Assembly: GCA_018242665.1 (NCBI GenBank)
Contig: JAFEBL010000041.1
Coordinates: 1-60,795 of the forward strand
Length of the DNA stretch: 60,795 bases
Origin: Nitrospira sp.
Lineage (GTDB): Bacteria > Nitrospirota > Nitrospiria > Nitrospirales > Nitrospiraceae
Direction: 5' to 3'
The notes under the pieces are model-generated. The model ran no database searches. It worked only from the letters and a program-made list of their open reading frames with translations, and was not told the DNA's origin. The stretch's first letter is position 1. Every line of letters begins with the position of its first letter. Shown piece after piece: positions 4,370-39,904 of the stretch. The translations under genes were made by a program, and so were the position numbers.

Positions 4370-5971
4370 ATGAGCAAGCTGATCTTTGTGACCGGGGGTG
4401 TCGTCTCGTCGCTCGGAAAGGGACTGGCTTCGGCGTCTATCGGCAATCTCCTGGAAAGCCGCGGGTTGAAGATCACCTTTTTGAAGCTCGACCCGTACAT
4501 CAACGTCGATCCCGGCACCATGAATCCCTACCAGCACGGCGAGGTCTACGTCACGGATGACGGGGCGGAGACCGATCTCGACCTGGGGCACTACGAACGC
4601 TACACTTCTCTCACGCTCACACGCGAAAATAACTATACGACCGGCCGCATTTATCACTCGGTGATCACGAAAGAGCGGCGCGGAGATTATCTGGGCGGCA
4701 CAGTCCAGGTGGTACCGCATGTGACCGATGAGATCAAGCAGTGCATCATGCGAACGTCGCAAGGCATGGATGTCACGATCGTGGAGATCGGCGGCACGGT
4801 CGGCGACATCGAAAGCCTTCCGTTTCTGGAAGCGATCAGGCAAATTCCCTATGACGTGGGGCGCGACAACGTGCTCTATGTGCATTTGACGCTGGTCCCC
4901 TATATCGGTGCGGCCGGTGAGTTGAAAACCAAACCCACTCAGCATTCCGTCAATAAGCTGCGCGAAATCGGTATTCAGCCGAACATCCTGTTATGCCGCA
5001 CGGATCGCTATCTTCCACCCGAACTCAAGGCCAAGATCGCCATGTTCTGCAACGTGGAGAAGGACGCGGTCATTACGGCCAAGGATGTCGAGACCATCTA
5101 CGAAGTGCCGATCGTGTTCCGCAAGGAAGGGCTGGATGAACTGATCGTGCGCCAACTGAAGCTCGAAACCGGTCCGCCCAATCTGCGCGAATGGGATGCG
5201 ATGGTGCAGAAGATCAAGCATCCCAAACACGAGGTGTCGATCGCGCTTGTCGGGAAATATGCCGGGCTGAAAGAATGTTACAAGAGCCTGGCGGAGGCGC
5301 TGGTCCACGGCGGCATCGACCACGAAACCCGCGTCAATGTCACCTGGATCGAATCCGAAGATGTGGAACGGCAGGGGACGGAGCGAATCCTGCGAGAGGC
5401 TGACGGCATTCTCATTCCCGGCGGGTTCGGCTCTCGGGGCATCGAAGGCAAGATTGTCACCATTCAGTATGCGCGGGAACACCAGATTCCGTTCCTCGGC
5501 CTTTGTCTGGGCATGCAATGCGCCACGATCGAGTTTGCGCGCAACGTTGCCGGCCTGACCGGCGCGAACAGCGCCGAGTTCAATGCACAGTCGCCGCATC
5601 CGGTCATCCATCTCATGTCCGATCAACAATCCGTCAATGACAAGGGCGGCACGATGCGCCTGGGCGCCTACACCTGCACATTGGGAGAGGGCACCCTGGC
5701 GCAGAAAATGTACGGCGTCAGCGAAGTGCGCGAACGGCATCGCCACCGGTACGAGTTCAACAATGCCTATCGCGAGCAATTGACCACCAAGGGCTTGGTG
5801 CTGAGTGGCCTGTCGCCGGATGGACGCCTGGTTGAAATCGTCGAACTGCCGAACCATCCCTGGTTTCTGGCCACGCAGTTCCATCCGGAATACAAGTCAC
5901 GGCCGCATCATCCACATCCGTTGTTTAGCGGGTTTGTCGGAGCCGCATTACGCCGCAAATGCGGCCACTAA
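4370..5971 (+). CDS. pyrG: CTP synthase
   Basis: Converts UTP, ATP and glutamine to CTP. At 533 residues it has the usual length. The N-terminal amidoligase domain starts at [13 protein letters not shown]; the C-terminal class I glutamine amidotransferase domain has its nucleophile C379 in GLCLGMQC and the His/Glu dyad in QFHPEY. The ATG at 4370 is preceded by AGAAGG at good spacing. Position within the kds genes makes sense because CMP-Kdo synthesis consumes CTP; the same neighbourhood (kdsB/pyrG/kdsA/kdsD) is common in Gram-negative bacteria. Followed by a family A palindromic repeat before kdsA. Confidence 0.97.
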
Positions 5972-5975
5972 TGGT

Positions 5976-6098
5976 GAGATGCTGAAACCGGCCTCCACCT
6001 GCGTTCTCGGTCACGTGTATCCTTGCGACGTACCGCAAGGGTACGCCTCAGTCCACACGCTCCCTGCGGCCTTGCTGGAAGACCGGTTTGAGCATCTC
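5976..6098 (+). repeat. Family A palindromic intergenic repeat, copy 1
   Basis: A 123-bp element between pyrG and kdsA. Its ends are inverted repeats (left GAGATGCTGAAACCGG at 5976; right CCGGTTTGAGCATCTC ending at 6098, one mismatch). The middle carries a conserved block GACGTACCGCAAGGGTACGC, itself a hairpin CGTACC/GGTACG, and near the right end CTGCGGCCTTGCTGGA. The same blocks in the same order occur at 20436-20556 (reverse orientation) and 39691-39813, with different but still complementary terminal stems. Confidence 0.85.
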
Positions 6099-20435: not shown

Positions 20436-20556
20436 GGCTTCTCAAAATGGTCATCCAGCAAGGCCGCAGGGAAGCCAGAGGCTGAGGCGTACCCTCGGGG
20501 GTACGTTGAAGGCTCTGGCCGACCGAGAACGCAGCTGGCGGCCATTTTCAGAAGCC
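20436..20556 (-). repeat. Family A palindromic intergenic repeat, copy 2
   Basis: A 121-bp element between purH and purD, in reverse orientation to copies 1 and 3. The ends are inverted repeats (GGCTTCTCAAAATGG on the left; CCATTTTCAGAAGCC on the right). Read on the minus strand it contains CGTACCCCCGAGGGTACG (a hairpin with a different loop from copy 1), GCGTTCTCGG, and CTGCGGCCTTGCTGGA. It ends just three bases before the last base of the purH stop codon. Confidence 0.85.
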
Positions 20557-20559
20557 GAT

Positions 20560-22113
20560 TTAGTGGCGGAAGTGGCGCATGCCTGTGAGAATCATCGCCA
20601 TCCCATGCTCGTCCACCGCCTTCGTCACCTCGGGGTCACGGATGGATCCGCCGGGCTGAATCACGCACGTAATACCAGCCTCTGCCGCGGCGTCGATACC
20701 ATCACGGAACGGGAAGAACGCATCGGACGCCATCACGCATCCCTTCACCGATGATTGCGCTTTCATGGCCGCGAGCTTCACCGAATCAACACGGCTCATC
20801 TGTCCGGCGCCGATACCCACGATTTCCCCAGGGCGTCCGTAAATGATGGCGTTCGACTTCACATGTTTACACACGACCCAAGCGAAGGCGCAGGCCGCGT
20901 ATTCCTCTTCAGTGGGTTTGCGCGCCGTCGGCACCGCCAGGGCTTTGATGTCCTTGATCACACCCAAGTCCCGGTCCTGCACAATCAACCCGCCGACCAG
21001 CTTCTTCAGATCGTATCCTTCAGCCGTCGCCTTGCTCAGCGGGCCCACATCCAGCAACCGGATGTCCTTCTTCCGCTTGAGTTCGGCCAAGGCCTCTTCG
21101 GTGAACGCCGGCGCGATGACCACTTCCACGAAGGTCGACGTGATTTCTTTCGCCGTTACCAGATCCACCGGGCGGTTGAAGGCAATGACACCGCCGAACG
21201 CCGAGACGGGATCCGTCGCGCGTGCTTTGACATAGGCTTCCACCGGCGTGGCGCCGAGCGCGCAGCCGCACGGATTGTTGTGCTTGATGATGGCCACCGC
21301 CGTCTGATCGAATTCCTTCACCAGCTCAAGGGCAGAATTGGCATCCAGAAAATTATTGTAAGACATGGCCTTGCCGTGCAGGATCTTCCCGCGCGACACG
21401 GCCGGCTCCTTCGCGTGCAATTCACGGTAGAAGGCACCCTGCTGATGCGGGTTTTCTCCATAACGCAGCGTCTCCACCCGCTCGAACTGCAGTGACAGAA
21501 TGGCCGGAAATTTCACTTCGCTCCCCTGTACCTGCTTTTCGAGATAGCCCGCGATCAGGCTGTCGTAGCGCGCGGTATGCTGAAACACTTTCATGGCCAG
21601 TTCACGCCGCAAGGCGGGCGTCACCGCCCCGGCCTTCAACGCATCCAGCACACGGGCGTAGTCCGTGGGATCGACCACCACGAGCACGTCCTCATGGTTC
21701 TTCGCGGCGGATCGCAACATCGACGGACCGCCGATGTCGATATTCTCAATCGCCTCCTCGAACGGACAATTGGGCTTGGCGATCGTCGCTTCGAACGGAT
21801 AGAGATTCACGACGACGACGTCGATGTTGCCGATGCCGTGCTGCTGCATCTGCGTTACGTGAGCAGGCACGCCCCGGCGCCCCAGCAGACCGCCGTGAAT
21901 TTTCGGATGCAGAGTTTTCACACGCCCGTCGAGAATCTCGGGAGAACCGGTGTACGCCGCAACATCGGTCACCGCGACACCCGCATCACGCAGGGCTTTG
22001 GCCGTACCCCCGGTGGACAACACTTCCGCACCAAGGGCCGCCAATCCCTTGGCCATATCGATCACTCCGGTCTTGTCAGAAACACTGATCAGTGCCCGCG
22101 CAATGCTGGCCAT
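20560..22113 (-). CDS. purH: Bifunctional AICAR formyltransferase/IMP cyclohydrolase
   Basis: Last two steps of IMP synthesis. 517 residues from ATG 22113, which has GAAGGAG six bases upstream; TTG 22128 is rejected because it overlaps that site. The N-terminal MGS-like IMP cyclohydrolase domain is at about 1-195 ([31 protein letters not shown]). The C-terminal AICAR transformylase has [14 protein letters not shown] and [11 protein letters not shown] and ends [12 protein letters not shown] promoter candidate lies at 22179-22208. Confidence 0.97.
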
Positions 22114-22471
22114 GATGAACTCCTTCAACTATGGATATCGTTGTGGGTGGGATCACATTGGGACGAAAAAACGCCGTGACAATAGCAGATGCCTTGACGC
22201 CACTGCAAGTTGATCGCAGCGGAACGCGACGTCTCCCCAATCATGCTCAGGCGTCACGCGCCCCGATTCGAATCGAGACGCGAACGTGAGCCGTGATTCC
22301 GTGCTAGCATGAGACTTGACGTTGTGATACCCTCCGCACGATAGCCGTGCGTCGGCTGAAGCCGGCGCATTCCATCAATCAAGTAACACTCGAAGTCTTG
22401 AGAAGGTACCCGCCCTGCGGCGGCTCCATGCCGCAGTGAGGCCTCGTGCCTGGGTCGATAAGGGCTGGCGC
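22114..22471. other. Divergent intergenic region, purH and OmpA-like gene
   Basis: About 358 bases without a convincing gene. The left part holds the purH promoter candidate. The right part contains GC-rich hairpins, for example CTGCGGC/GCCGCAG at about 22420-22440 just upstream of the OmpA-like gene; they may affect its mRNA but no known riboswitch is recognised. Confidence 0.5.
22179..22208 (-). promoter_or_regulatory. Candidate sigma-70 promoter for purH
   Basis: On the minus strand: TTGCAG (22208-22203), 18 bases, TATTGT (22184-22179), placing the transcript start near 22172 and the purH ATG about 60 bases later. No PUR-box or G-riboswitch-like motif was recognised in that leader. Confidence 0.5.
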
Positions 22472-25100: not shown

Positions 25101-27008
25101 TTATGTAACGCCCAGTGCAAACCACCCTGCCCAACCGCTCGCGCCATCCCACCAGGTGCTGTAGACAACACCATCAGACCCGACGGTCACCAGATCAATG
25201 TGCTCGGTGACACGGGAGATCGCGGCCACCTGGCCACCCGGTTTTCCAACTCCACCCGACACGTTGAACCAACCAGCCCAGTTTTGTCCTTCATGCCACC
25301 AGGTACTATAGACCCGATTATCTGTACCAATGGTAAACAGATCGAGGTGGTTCGAGTACCGTGCAATTGCAGTCACGGGCGACCCGGGGGATGCGATACC
25401 ACTCGATACCTGGAACCAATTCCCCCAACCACTCCGGGCATTCCACCAGGTCGACATGATGCGTCCGTCGGAGGCAGTAGTAAACAGATCGAGTTGATCT
25501 GGGAAGCGCGCGACAACCGAGACTGTCGAGTCGGATCTGCCTTGTATCGTGCCGATCGCAAACCAGTTGTGCCAGCCGCTTCGTTCATCCCACCAGCAGC
25601 TGTACACGCGCGTGTCCGTGCCGATGGTGAAGAGATCGAGATGGAACGGGTATCGTGCGATGGCGGTCACAGTGGCGCCGGGGGCTGCGACCCCACCCTG
25701 GACCTGGAACCAATCGGCCCAGCCGGCACGGACATCCCACCAAGTGGACATGATCCGACCGTCCGCTGCGGTGGTGAAGAGATCGAGGTGATCACTGTAT
25801 CGCGACAGGGCAGTGACGGTGGAACCCGGGCGGCACTGCACGGTACCGATGGTGAACCACCCATGCCAACCGCTTGACGCATCCCACCACGCGCTATATA
25901 CCCGGTTGTCCGTGCCGACTGTAAATAAATCAAGGTGGCCGGCATATCGAGCCACTGCGGTAACCGGTGCCCCTGGCCCACCAGGCGAGCTGATCCCGCC
26001 CTGGACATGAAACCATCCCGCCCAACCGGTTGACTGATCCCACCAATTGCTCATGGTGCGGCCGTCACCAGCCACGGCAAATACATCCAAATGCTCCGGA
26101 AACCGTGCGACGAGAGTGATCGGCGTGCGGGCCCGTCCCACCAAGGTCGCCAACGGGCCAATGCGATTCCAGATGGCTTGGCGACAGACACGACAAAATG
26201 GCACGCCAAGCGCGCGCATCTTACAATCGTATTCCGGCCTGAAGGCGCCACAATGATAATAGTGGGCGCCTTCGAACAAGCCAACGGTACCGATAGGAAC
26301 CGGGCTGCTTCTCCCATCTATCTGGCTGCAATCGGGATTACTCATGGTTGGAATCGCGGTCGTCGACGCAACCGCCCACCGCCACTTCAAGGTGTTGCGG
26401 TCGGAATTCGTCGTGACGTTGGGTTCCGACGGCTCGCCGGCAGGGTGGTGGTCATGACCCGTTTCGTTGCCGCCAGCATAGTAGGGGTATTCGTCCGCCA
26501 ACCCAAACGCAGTATGTCCGAGCTCATGGATGGCGATTTCCGTGGCTCCTCCCGCCAGTGAATAGGTGCCTACACCGCCGCCACTTCCGCCATAAATCGT
26601 CGAATTCACAACCACCAACACGACGGTAAACTCCGGAACCTGTGCCGCTGCAACCTGCAAGGCAGTGGTCCCGTTGCAGAGCAACAATCGTCGGATATTG
26701 TTTCCACCGAAAGTCGCGTCAAAGTACGTTCGGGCAGTGGCTCCTGTGCCACCGGCTGCAATCGGGTCGTCCGCGCCGGAATCGGTCGAACTGACGTTCA
26801 CTCTGAACACATTGATCGCTGGACTGAGTTCATCGAACGGTTGGGTGCCGCGGAAGTCGCTGATGAACTGCGTGCAGGCCGTATCAAACGCGGCCTGCTG
26901 AGCGACGGTAAACCCTTCCGCAAGCAGGACGACATTGAACGCGCGGTTCCTGGGGGCTGAACCAAAGATTTGCGTCGAACCGATGACAGCGCCATCCGCA
27001 GTAGACAT
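25101..27008 (-). CDS. M64-type zinc metallopeptidase fused to a predicted seven-bladed lectin-like propeller
   Basis: 635 residues with no evident signal peptide. Residues 1-290 resemble peptidase M64 (IgA peptidase): NVVLLAEGFT near the start and the zinc motif HELGHTAFGLADEY at about 163. The rest is seven repeats of about 47 residues, each centred on a DLFTVGTDNRVYSAWWD-like block and a Gly-Trp-Phe turn. They alternate between two subtypes (GTDxRVYS and ASDGRIMS). This matches the DUF346/PLL fucose-binding lectin propeller family. It would be a glycan-targeted protease, but the absence of a signal peptide leaves its route out of the cell open. ATG 27008 has GGGGAGG upstream. An unrelated-looking gene starts 14 bases upstream. 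Confidence 0.85.
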   Translation of the reverse strand: MSTADGAVIGSTQIFGSAPRNRAFNVVLLAEGFTVAQQAAFDTACTQFISDFRGTQPFDELSPAINVFRVNVSSTDSGADDPIAAGGTGATARTYFDATFGGNNIRRLLLCNGTTALQVAAAQVPEFTVVLVVVNSTIYGGSGGGVGTYSLAGGATEIAIHELGHTAFGLADEYPYYAGGNETGHDHHPAGEPSEPNVTTNSDRNTLKWRWAVASTTAIPTMSNPDCSQIDGRSSPVPIGTVGLFEGAHYYHCGAFRPEYDCKMRALGVPFCRVCRQAIWNRIGPLATLVGRARTPITLVARFPEHLDVFAVAGDGRTMSNWWDQSTGWAGWFHVQGGISSPGGPGAPVTAVARYAGHLDLFTVGTDNRVYSAWWDASSGWHGWFTIGTVQCRPGSTVTALSRYSDHLDLFTTAADGRIMSTWWDVRAGWADWFQVQGGVAAPGATVTAIARYPFHLDLFTIGTDTRVYSCWWDERSGWHNWFAIGTIQGRSDSTVSVVARFPDQLDLFTTASDGRIMSTWWNARSGWGNWFQVSSGIASPGSPVTAIARYSNHLDLFTIGTDNRVYSTWWHEGQNWAGWFNVSGGVGKPGGQVAAISRVTEHIDLVTVGSDGVVYSTWWDGASGWAGWFALGVT

Positions 27009-38105: not shown

Positions 38106-38373
38106 CCTCCAAGGCAACGCCTCTCCCAGTTCCGCAATCGCCAATCCCACATCGTGGCGTCCACGTTCCCCTGTCTCCTTCTTTCGTGTGCAATCTACAG
38201 GCTTTCCCCGATTTTCGGACATCCCGCAAGTTGTTAGACTGCCGCCCGCTGACGTGCGGCATCTGACTTTCCCTCGATCAGCATGATTCAACCGTCGCCG
38301 GACAACACCCACACCAGGCCCGGCCCATTCACCCATCGTGCGCTACGATTGTTCAGAGGAGGTATGTGGCGGT

Positions 38374-39690
38374 ATGTCGAAGAAGCATGTGAACAGGTTC
38401 ATCATGGCAGTGGCCCTCGCGTGTGTCGTTGACGCCGGGAGCACCTTTGCGCAATCGTTACTCACCGGGTTGCCGTCGGGCGACATGCCCACTCCTGTGT
38501 TTTCCGCGCAACCATCCGGCTTGGAGGGAAGTCCTGCATCCGAACCATTGTGGACCGACGCGCTCTGGCACGCCGACGAAAAGGGCATCCGCCGTTTTTT
38601 CCCGCAGGACGGCGTTCTCCGCGTCCGGGGCTGGATCGACGGCGGCTACACCTACAATGCCAGCAGCCCGAGCCACAACTTCAACGGGCCGTACAACGCG
38701 ATCGACCGTGATATCCCGGTCCTCAATCAGTTGTATATGATCGTCGAAAAGCCGTTGACGGCCACCGGCAGCAACTGGGGCATCGGCGGACGCCTCGACT
38801 TCATGTATGGCTACGATTACTTTCTGACACAGAGCAACGGCGTCGAGCGGCGCGAGAACGGCGCCCAGCGGTGGAACGCGCAGGGGCAACATTACGGACT
38901 GGCGATGCCGCAAGCCTATGCGGAAATCGGCAACCAGACCTTTTCCGTGAAGATCGGACACTTTTATACGATTATCGGGTACGAGGGCGTCCCGGCCATC
39001 AACAACTTCTTCTATTCGAAATCCTACTCCTATCAATTCGCCGGACCATTCACCCATTGGGGTGGACTAGCGACGTGGCGCATCAATGACCGGGTGACGT
39101 TGCAAGGCGGAGTAGTCAACGGCTGGGATTCGCTGAACCGATACAAGGACAGCGCGACGGGCCTCGCCAGCATTAAGTACACCGCCCCGGAAGATTTCTG
39201 GTCGCTCTCGTTCTCGATGGTGACCGGCAACGAACCAAGTGCCGTCGCCACGCAGTTTGAAACCCGTACCCGCTACAGCGCGATCTTCACGCTGCATCCG
39301 GCAGAGCGATGGGAATATGTCTTCCACCATCACTATGCGTACCAAAACCAGGGCAGACTCGACGGCGGCACCGCGCGCTGGTATGGAATCGACAACTATC
39401 TCTACTACGCCCTCACCGATCAGGTGCGCGCAGGGCTTCGCCTGGAGTGGATGCGCGACGAAGCCGGTACCCGCGTCGGAGGTAACCCGGTACGCGACAA
39501 CCCGAACCTCGGGCCGTTCGCCGGCTCCTTCTACTCCGTCAGCGTCGGCCTGAATTATCGGCCGCATCCCAACGTGCTGATCCGTCCGGAAGTGCGCGCC
39601 GATTGGTTTGATGGCCAACGGCAGCCCTTCAACGACGGCCTGAACAAGAACCAGGTTCTGGCCGCGATCAACGGCAATCTGCAGTTCTAA
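38374..39690 (+). CDS. Outer-membrane beta-barrel porin, BBP2/OmpL-like
   Basis: 438 residues from ATG 38374; a signal peptide (about 1-28) ends in GSTFAQ. The mature part is rich in alternating strands and aromatic girdles, with YGYDYFLTQSNGVERRENGA, YAEIGNQTFSVKIGHFYTII and C-terminal strands ending in the aromatic residue LQF, as expected for a barrel. The motifs fit the BBP2 (DUF1597) porin family. A GAGGAGG motif lies 11 bases upstream, slightly far; an ATG at 38364 is out of frame. No partner transporter is encoded next to it, and family A copy 3 follows immediately. Confidence 0.85.
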   Translation: MSKKHVNRFIMAVALACVVDAGSTFAQSLLTGLPSGDMPTPVFSAQPSGLEGSPASEPLWTDALWHADEKGIRRFFPQDGVLRVRGWIDGGYTYNASSPSHNFNGPYNAIDRDIPVLNQLYMIVEKPLTATGSNWGIGGRLDFMYGYDYFLTQSNGVERRENGAQRWNAQGQHYGLAMPQAYAEIGNQTFSVKIGHFYTIIGYEGVPAINNFFYSKSYSYQFAGPFTHWGGLATWRINDRVTLQGGVVNGWDSLNRYKDSATGLASIKYTAPEDFWSLSFSMVTGNEPSAVATQFETRTRYSAIFTLHPAERWEYVFHHHYAYQNQGRLDGGTARWYGIDNYLYYALTDQVRAGLRLEWMRDEAGTRVGGNPVRDNPNLGPFAGSFYSVSVGLNYRPHPNVLIRPEVRADWFDGQRQPFNDGLNKNQVLAAINGNLQF

Positions 39691-39813
39691 CAGGATGCGG
39701 AAAACGTCCGCCAGCGGCGTTCTCGTTGCGTTCAGGCCCTCAACGTACCGCAAGGGTACGCCTCGGGTCTTCACTGACTGCGGCCTTGCTGGACAGCCAT
39801 TTTGCGCATCCTG
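39691..39813 (+). repeat. Family A palindromic intergenic repeat, copy 3
   Basis: A 123-bp element right after the porin stop. Terminal inverted repeats CAGGATGCG/CGCATCCTG are perfect over nine bases. The inner blocks match copy 1 in order: GCGTTCTCG, then CAACGTACCGCAAGGGTACG, then CTGCGGCCTTGCTGGA. The terminal stem sequence differs completely from those of copies 1 and 2, yet pairs. Confidence 0.88.
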
Positions 39814-39904
39814 CAAGGTGTTTTGCTGCAGGATAGCTCAACGCGAGCTTGACGCAACAAACGATTATTCCAAGACCTGACAAGGAGAATTGAATAGCCG
39901 AGCG

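Follow-up and report, generated by a model that had tools for sequence, protein, structure and literature searches.

A MITE-derived palindromic element behind stop codons of Nitrospira, probably kept as a DNA hairpin

Genomes of nitrite-oxidizing Nitrospira contain a recurrent palindromic element that typically lies behind the stop codon of a gene. We consider it probable that this element is a palindrome born from a MITE and kept as a hairpin of the DNA itself, with a putative role for the host. Three copies are present in the window, i.e. the whole stretch of 60,795 nucleotides that was analyzed. Copy 1 occupies 5976–6098 on the plus strand (covariance model score 122 bits) with its arms at 5976–5991 and 6083–6098, and starts 5 bases past the stop codon (TAA, 5969–5971) of pyrG, which encodes CTP synthase (4370–5971, plus strand). 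Copy 2 (20436–20556, minus strand) is located directly past the stop codon of purH (20560–22128, minus strand), and copy 3 (39691–39813, plus strand) begins with the first base after the stop codon (TAA, 39688–39690) of a gene for a putative beta-barrel porin (BBP2; 38338–39690, plus strand). The copies sit directly behind the stop codon, which sets their left end.

All three copies have in common a TGCGTTCTCG-like block, a CGTACC/GGTACG hairpin and the block CTGCGGCCTTGCTGGA. On the plus strand of copy 1 these correspond to the conserved unpaired TGCGTTCTCG at 6000–6009, the apical hairpin CGTACC-GCAAG-GGTACG at 6029–6045, which was delimited by folding and covariation, and CTGCGGCCTTGCTGGA at 6064–6079, which was located by exact-match search and alignment. 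Exact matches of CTGCGGCCTTGCTGGA occur three times in the window, each inside one of the copies. The outer stem carries a conserved G-G mismatch, formed by G5984 (plus strand) and G6090 in copy 1 and by G39700 and G39804 in copy 3. Folding the copies end to end gave z-scores of -5.8, -5.7 and -2.9 relative to dinucleotide shuffles. A preliminary description of this DNA had reported three copies with ordered blocks whose outer stems each pair with their own right end; coordinates and blocks were all verified, and the pairing is borne out by the end-to-end folding and by strong covariation. The outer stems do not "differ completely", as had been stated, but are variants of one consensus, cAGGATGCtGAAAA...TTTTGaGCATCCTG. 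Elsewhere in the window, five direct repeats with a spacing of 147 bp (49 codons) are found at 25320–25977 within a long minus-strand ORF (25101–27008), which probably encodes a repeat protein.

A covariance-model search for further copies, as the preliminary description had suggested, was carried out with a model built from 24 copies and yielded many: 72 matches at E<=0.01 in the genome of the window itself (4.06 Mb in 57 contigs), of which about 65 are credible, and 117 matches in Candidatus Nitrospira defluvii (G024), representing about 115 copies. The exact block CTGCGGCCTTGCTGGA occurs at 16 places in the own genome. A strict core pattern was present in 41 of 61 relatives and in 12 of the 19 genera of the order, the reversed control giving 0 matches, and among the matches listed in a scan of 84,980 species almost exclusively Nitrospira and Nitrospirota records appeared, the pattern being nearly confined to Nitrospirales. 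The core pattern was also seen in two contigs binned as Methylomirabilota (L272) and Krumholzibacteriia (L323), which points to either misbinning or a spread beyond Nitrospirota. Plasmid and phage collections contained no match to the element, and a literature search of incomplete coverage retrieved no earlier description of the repeat from Nitrospira. Some loci harbor longer variants of about 175–194 bp with an insertion of about 45–65 bp in or near the apical loop (L025/L097, G000:C12:8105-8279; L121:10827-11000; L111; L011). Two or three elements, partly of different subtypes, can also be arranged in tandem (L143, L147 and L152 at the purH site; G024:C1:2715445-2715836).

The hairpin is maintained by paired changes. 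In 70 copies of the own genome pairing is found in 91.8% of cells compared to 74.4% in shuffles, and the covariation score amounts to 0.386, compared to 0.104 after shuffling and at most 0.077 with the partner slid. Changes on both sides are seen in 25 of 30 pairs, and sliding the partner by 1–3 columns abolishes the signal. A copy set from another species (G001) shows similar covariation, and in two data sets none of 500 shuffles reached the observed value. The underlying alignments were fitted to the model; a MAFFT alignment predating any model gives the same result. When copies at orthologous sites of the own genome and N. defluvii are compared, 50 of 67 doubly changed pairs are still Watson-Crick, and single-sided departures comprise 11 G-T, 21 A-C and 35 other combinations. 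At the pyrG site, for instance, the own genome has GAGATGC/GCATCTC where N. defluvii has GGGATGC/GCATCCC. The claim of compensatory change in the stems thus proved real against both shuffles and slid partners. The opposite reading, that unrelated terminal stems pair by chance, is refuted by the shuffles as well as by the double changes at the same site, and we give it practically no credence. The G-G mismatch, which lies midway along the outer stem, is retained in 146 of 164 aligned copies; some of the pairs around it are altered in up to half of the copies.

Near-identical, young copies in N. defluvii reveal where the element comes from. In these the palindrome makes up 125 bp on the left side of a MITE of 199 bp, which has the layout YTAR-CAGGATGCGGAAAAA...palindrome...variable part...TTTTTCCGCAACCTG-YTAR. 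CAGGATGCGGAAAAA and TTTTTCCGCAACCTG constitute the terminal inverted repeats, the left arm of the palindrome being the left terminal repeat, and the 4-bp YTAR target duplications are identical on both sides (TTAG/TTAG, CTAG/CTAG and CTAA/CTAA). Insertion often occurred inside a TAG or TAA stop codon, which is rebuilt by the insertion; for one N. defluvii MITE in the stop codon of a gene the uninterrupted site with a single CTAG is found in G015, G019, G020 and G023. A 1.3-kb IS in N. defluvii has the same ends as the MITE, TTAG duplications and a transposase with DUF772 and DDE_Tnp_1. The reading frame of this IS5-type element (L222:973-2295) is apparently interrupted near the start, so that the copy is possibly frameshifted. 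The proposal of a MITE- or REP-like interspersed element is supported in its MITE form by these duplications and the many further copies. The window was also said to hold no transposase that could mobilize the element, which is true for the window itself, but an IS5-type transposase with matching ends is present in a relative, so that mobility needs no RAYT.

In most old copies, including those of the window, the right MITE end is lost or decayed; near copy 3 the stretch TTATTCCAAGACCTG (39865–39879, plus strand), as compared to TTTTTCCGCAACCTG, may tentatively be regarded as a decayed right end of the original MITE. Insertion at YTAR explains both the start of elements right after stop codons and the scarcity of TGA among these (21% of adjacent stops versus 46% genome-wide, p=1e-5). 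Old copies mostly have their left end at the stop codon, whereas young copies may have either end, for which YTAR insertion alone is no explanation. The young form is an ordinary MITE; it is the conserved, covarying and replication-oriented old form that is unusual.

Old copies persist at their sites across the genus. For 36 copies of the own genome, N. defluvii has a copy at the same left-hand gene end. At the purH site the element is present in 25 of 27 Nitrospira species, the others having one fragment and one trace, and some species carry tandem pairs. The pyrG site is occupied in about 24 of 27 species, with one truncated element and two cases of outer stem or trace. One and the same site can hold different subtypes, with modular changes of the inner body and the arms. 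The pyrG site of G021 (L164) has been reduced to a bare outer stem, GCAGGATGTTGAACATCCTGC, and G004 (L165) retains a trace of it; both give the impression of an in-place deletion of the sequence between the arms. Comparing the own genome with N. defluvii, we found an element identity of 0.79 versus 0.58 for third codon positions of the adjacent gene (higher in 23 of 24 sites), and of 0.77 versus 0.57 for the next 45 intergenic bases (21 of 22 sites). The identity between elements at different sites is 0.69. These values indicate purifying selection and shared descent rather than homogenization.

The orientation of old copies follows replication. According to the GC skew of N. defluvii, which puts the terminus close to 2.36 Mb and the origin close to 0, the top strand of old copies lies on the leading strand in a ratio of 49:16; young MITE-like copies show 12:8. 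For old copies of G001 the ratio is 39:9 (p=1.5e-5), N. defluvii and G001 sharing some sites at which orthologous copies are non-independent. In tandem contexts of two genomes, with genes called by a simple codon model, 40 of 53 elements are on the leading strand where the genes lead, and 22 of 29 where they lag. As these shares are alike, replication and not transcription predicts the orientation: 62 of 82 elements are oriented with replication, and 47 are oriented with the gene versus 35 against it. G009 was left out of the replichore count because of its mosaic GC skew; on its contig C1 the skew flips sign several times and elements seem to track the local skew, the chromosome being either rearranged or misassembled. 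GC skew in the window is negative over most of its length: copy 2 conforms, copy 3 is contrary and copy 1 lies in a neutral stretch. Folding shows the bottom strand to be the more stable hairpin in about 80–85% of copies; the idea that the G-G-bearing strand forms the more stable hairpin was dropped, as folding favors the opposite strand. From the geometry of replication, the preferred orientation would keep the strand with the more stable hairpin off the lagging-strand template.

As a rule, covariation is regarded as proving a functional RNA. In the present case it is very strong, yet wobble tolerance and orientation to genes point to DNA. In the stem of a functional RNA, more tolerance is expected for G-U than for A-C. 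We counted 147 G-T versus 145 A-C mismatches in the copies of two genomes. Since elements occur in either orientation to genes, mismatches of copies in tandem contexts were also scored on the strand that is transcribed, which gave 79 G-U versus 62 A-C (p=0.18); in a small control of eleven tRNAs the numbers were 10 and 0. As G-U is no favorite over A-C, the pairing constraint is not the usual one of RNA. An Rfam scan gave no match at gathering score, no T-run follows the stem in any of the three window copies, and a terminator scanner covering two of them did not list the element hairpins among its hits; an intrinsic terminator was thus rejected, in line with the earlier doubt about a single terminator role. 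The RNA stabilizer, another option of the preliminary description, fares poorly given the missing wobble preference and an orientation independent of gene direction, whereas a structured RNA should keep a fixed orientation to the transcribed gene. The RNA reading of the element is weakened by these observations. It may nevertheless be argued that the mRNA is protected or ended by a hairpin past the stop codon, whichever way the element points, in the manner of REP or ERIC RNA. The left end abuts the stop codon in most co-directional copies, contexts are 4 divergent versus 48 convergent among 182 (29 to 23 in a genome sample), sites are conserved, and the slight excess of G-U in the transcript sense would fit as well. 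This excess is not significant, however, the orientation is blind to gene direction, and YTAR insertion in stop codons already accounts for much of the position, so that we regard such a 3'-UTR element as possible but rather unlikely.

The copies might also be neutral MITE fossils in which quasipalindrome template switching preserves the complementarity of the arms, the orientation bias resulting from strand-biased deletion. Mobility is evident, the covariation lacks a G-U bias, and in G021 an element was deleted in place to its outer stem. Template switching during replication is known to yield compensatory changes within a single step (PMC8794818); in E. coli the process has a strand bias (PMC7202029). 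The earlier conclusion that compensatory change argues for selection therefore stands only with this caveat. Neutral decay is hard to reconcile with elements that are more conserved than both third positions and flanks. Moreover, template switching should convert the G-G mismatch into a pair and has rarely done so, which is the main argument against a purely neutral upkeep. We consider it unlikely that the copies are such fossils.

Under the reading that we favor, a palindrome retained as a DNA hairpin, a 199-bp MITE inserts at YTAR with a 4-bp duplication, often in a TAG or TAA stop codon, as shown in N. defluvii, and would be mobilized by an IS5-type transposase with the same ends. Old copies, mostly without their right end, remain at sites stable throughout the genus, the hairpin being kept by paired changes and the unpaired blocks and the G-G mismatch staying fixed. 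Their pattern of orientation with replication, irrespective of gene direction, suggests that it is as DNA, on the strand being replicated, that the hairpin is important. Loss may be more frequent among copies of opposite orientation, which have the more stable hairpin strand on the lagging-strand template. In our view the element is retained as a putative structure-specific site at gene ends that is likely bound by a protein; this host role is the weakest step of the explanation. Speculatively, each genome of the genus might possess some 50–110 polar DNA hairpin sites that were recruited from a MITE and that a host protein recognizes on the strand being replicated, with the fixed G-G mismatch and the unpaired blocks as recognition code and stems free to covary, a proposal that we ourselves rate as improbable. 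If true, segregation, fork restart or nucleoid organization would be candidate roles of this protein. The family provides a natural data set of orthologous sites in many species for weighing selection on DNA hairpins against template-switching mutation. It also shows how, in an important nitrifier, a MITE inserting into stop codons can turn into a durable feature of the genome that is oriented with replication.

Several known systems resemble the element. In IS5-family MITEs, terminal repeats and YTAR duplication are found as in the young N. defluvii copies, whereas in Nitrospira it is the left half by itself that has remained at the conserved sites, with covarying arms. Integron attC sites are imperfect hairpins behind stop codons with conserved pairing, variable stem sequence and mispaired features. 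The element is similar in all these respects, but its outer stem is devoid of the attC core sequence, and in three genomes no integron integrase scored above cut-off, generic tyrosine recombinases appearing below it only; an attC identity was thus rejected. REPs and REPINs with their RAYT are likewise palindromes at gene ends, and GTAG REPs may supply the TAG stop (PMC3733652). They are 20–40 bp long and linked to a Y1 transposase; the element of about 125 bp is no GTAG- or CGTC-tagged palindrome of that size, bearing YTAR as stop and target tag only. A REP/RAYT system was rejected, as the own genome has no match to the Y1 (HUH) transposase PF01797. ERIC (RU-1) of enterobacteria, about 127 bp long, agrees in size, in being an imperfect palindrome over its full length, in its intergenic position and in its MITE-like form with target duplications (PMC2229807). 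ERIC has TA termini and duplication and a reported effect at the RNA level that depends on its orientation; by description, the Nitrospira element differs from it in having YTAR duplications, ends of the IS5 type and an orientation relative to replication. With a length of about 168 bp, YPAL (RU-2) of Yersinia is also palindromic, intergenic and mobile with target duplications (PMC2229807). Compared by description, its duplications of 3–26 bp and its internal inverted repeats differ. No sequence relation between YPAL and the Nitrospira element is known to us. ERIC and YPAL are thus closest in form, and GTAG REPs are closest in position.
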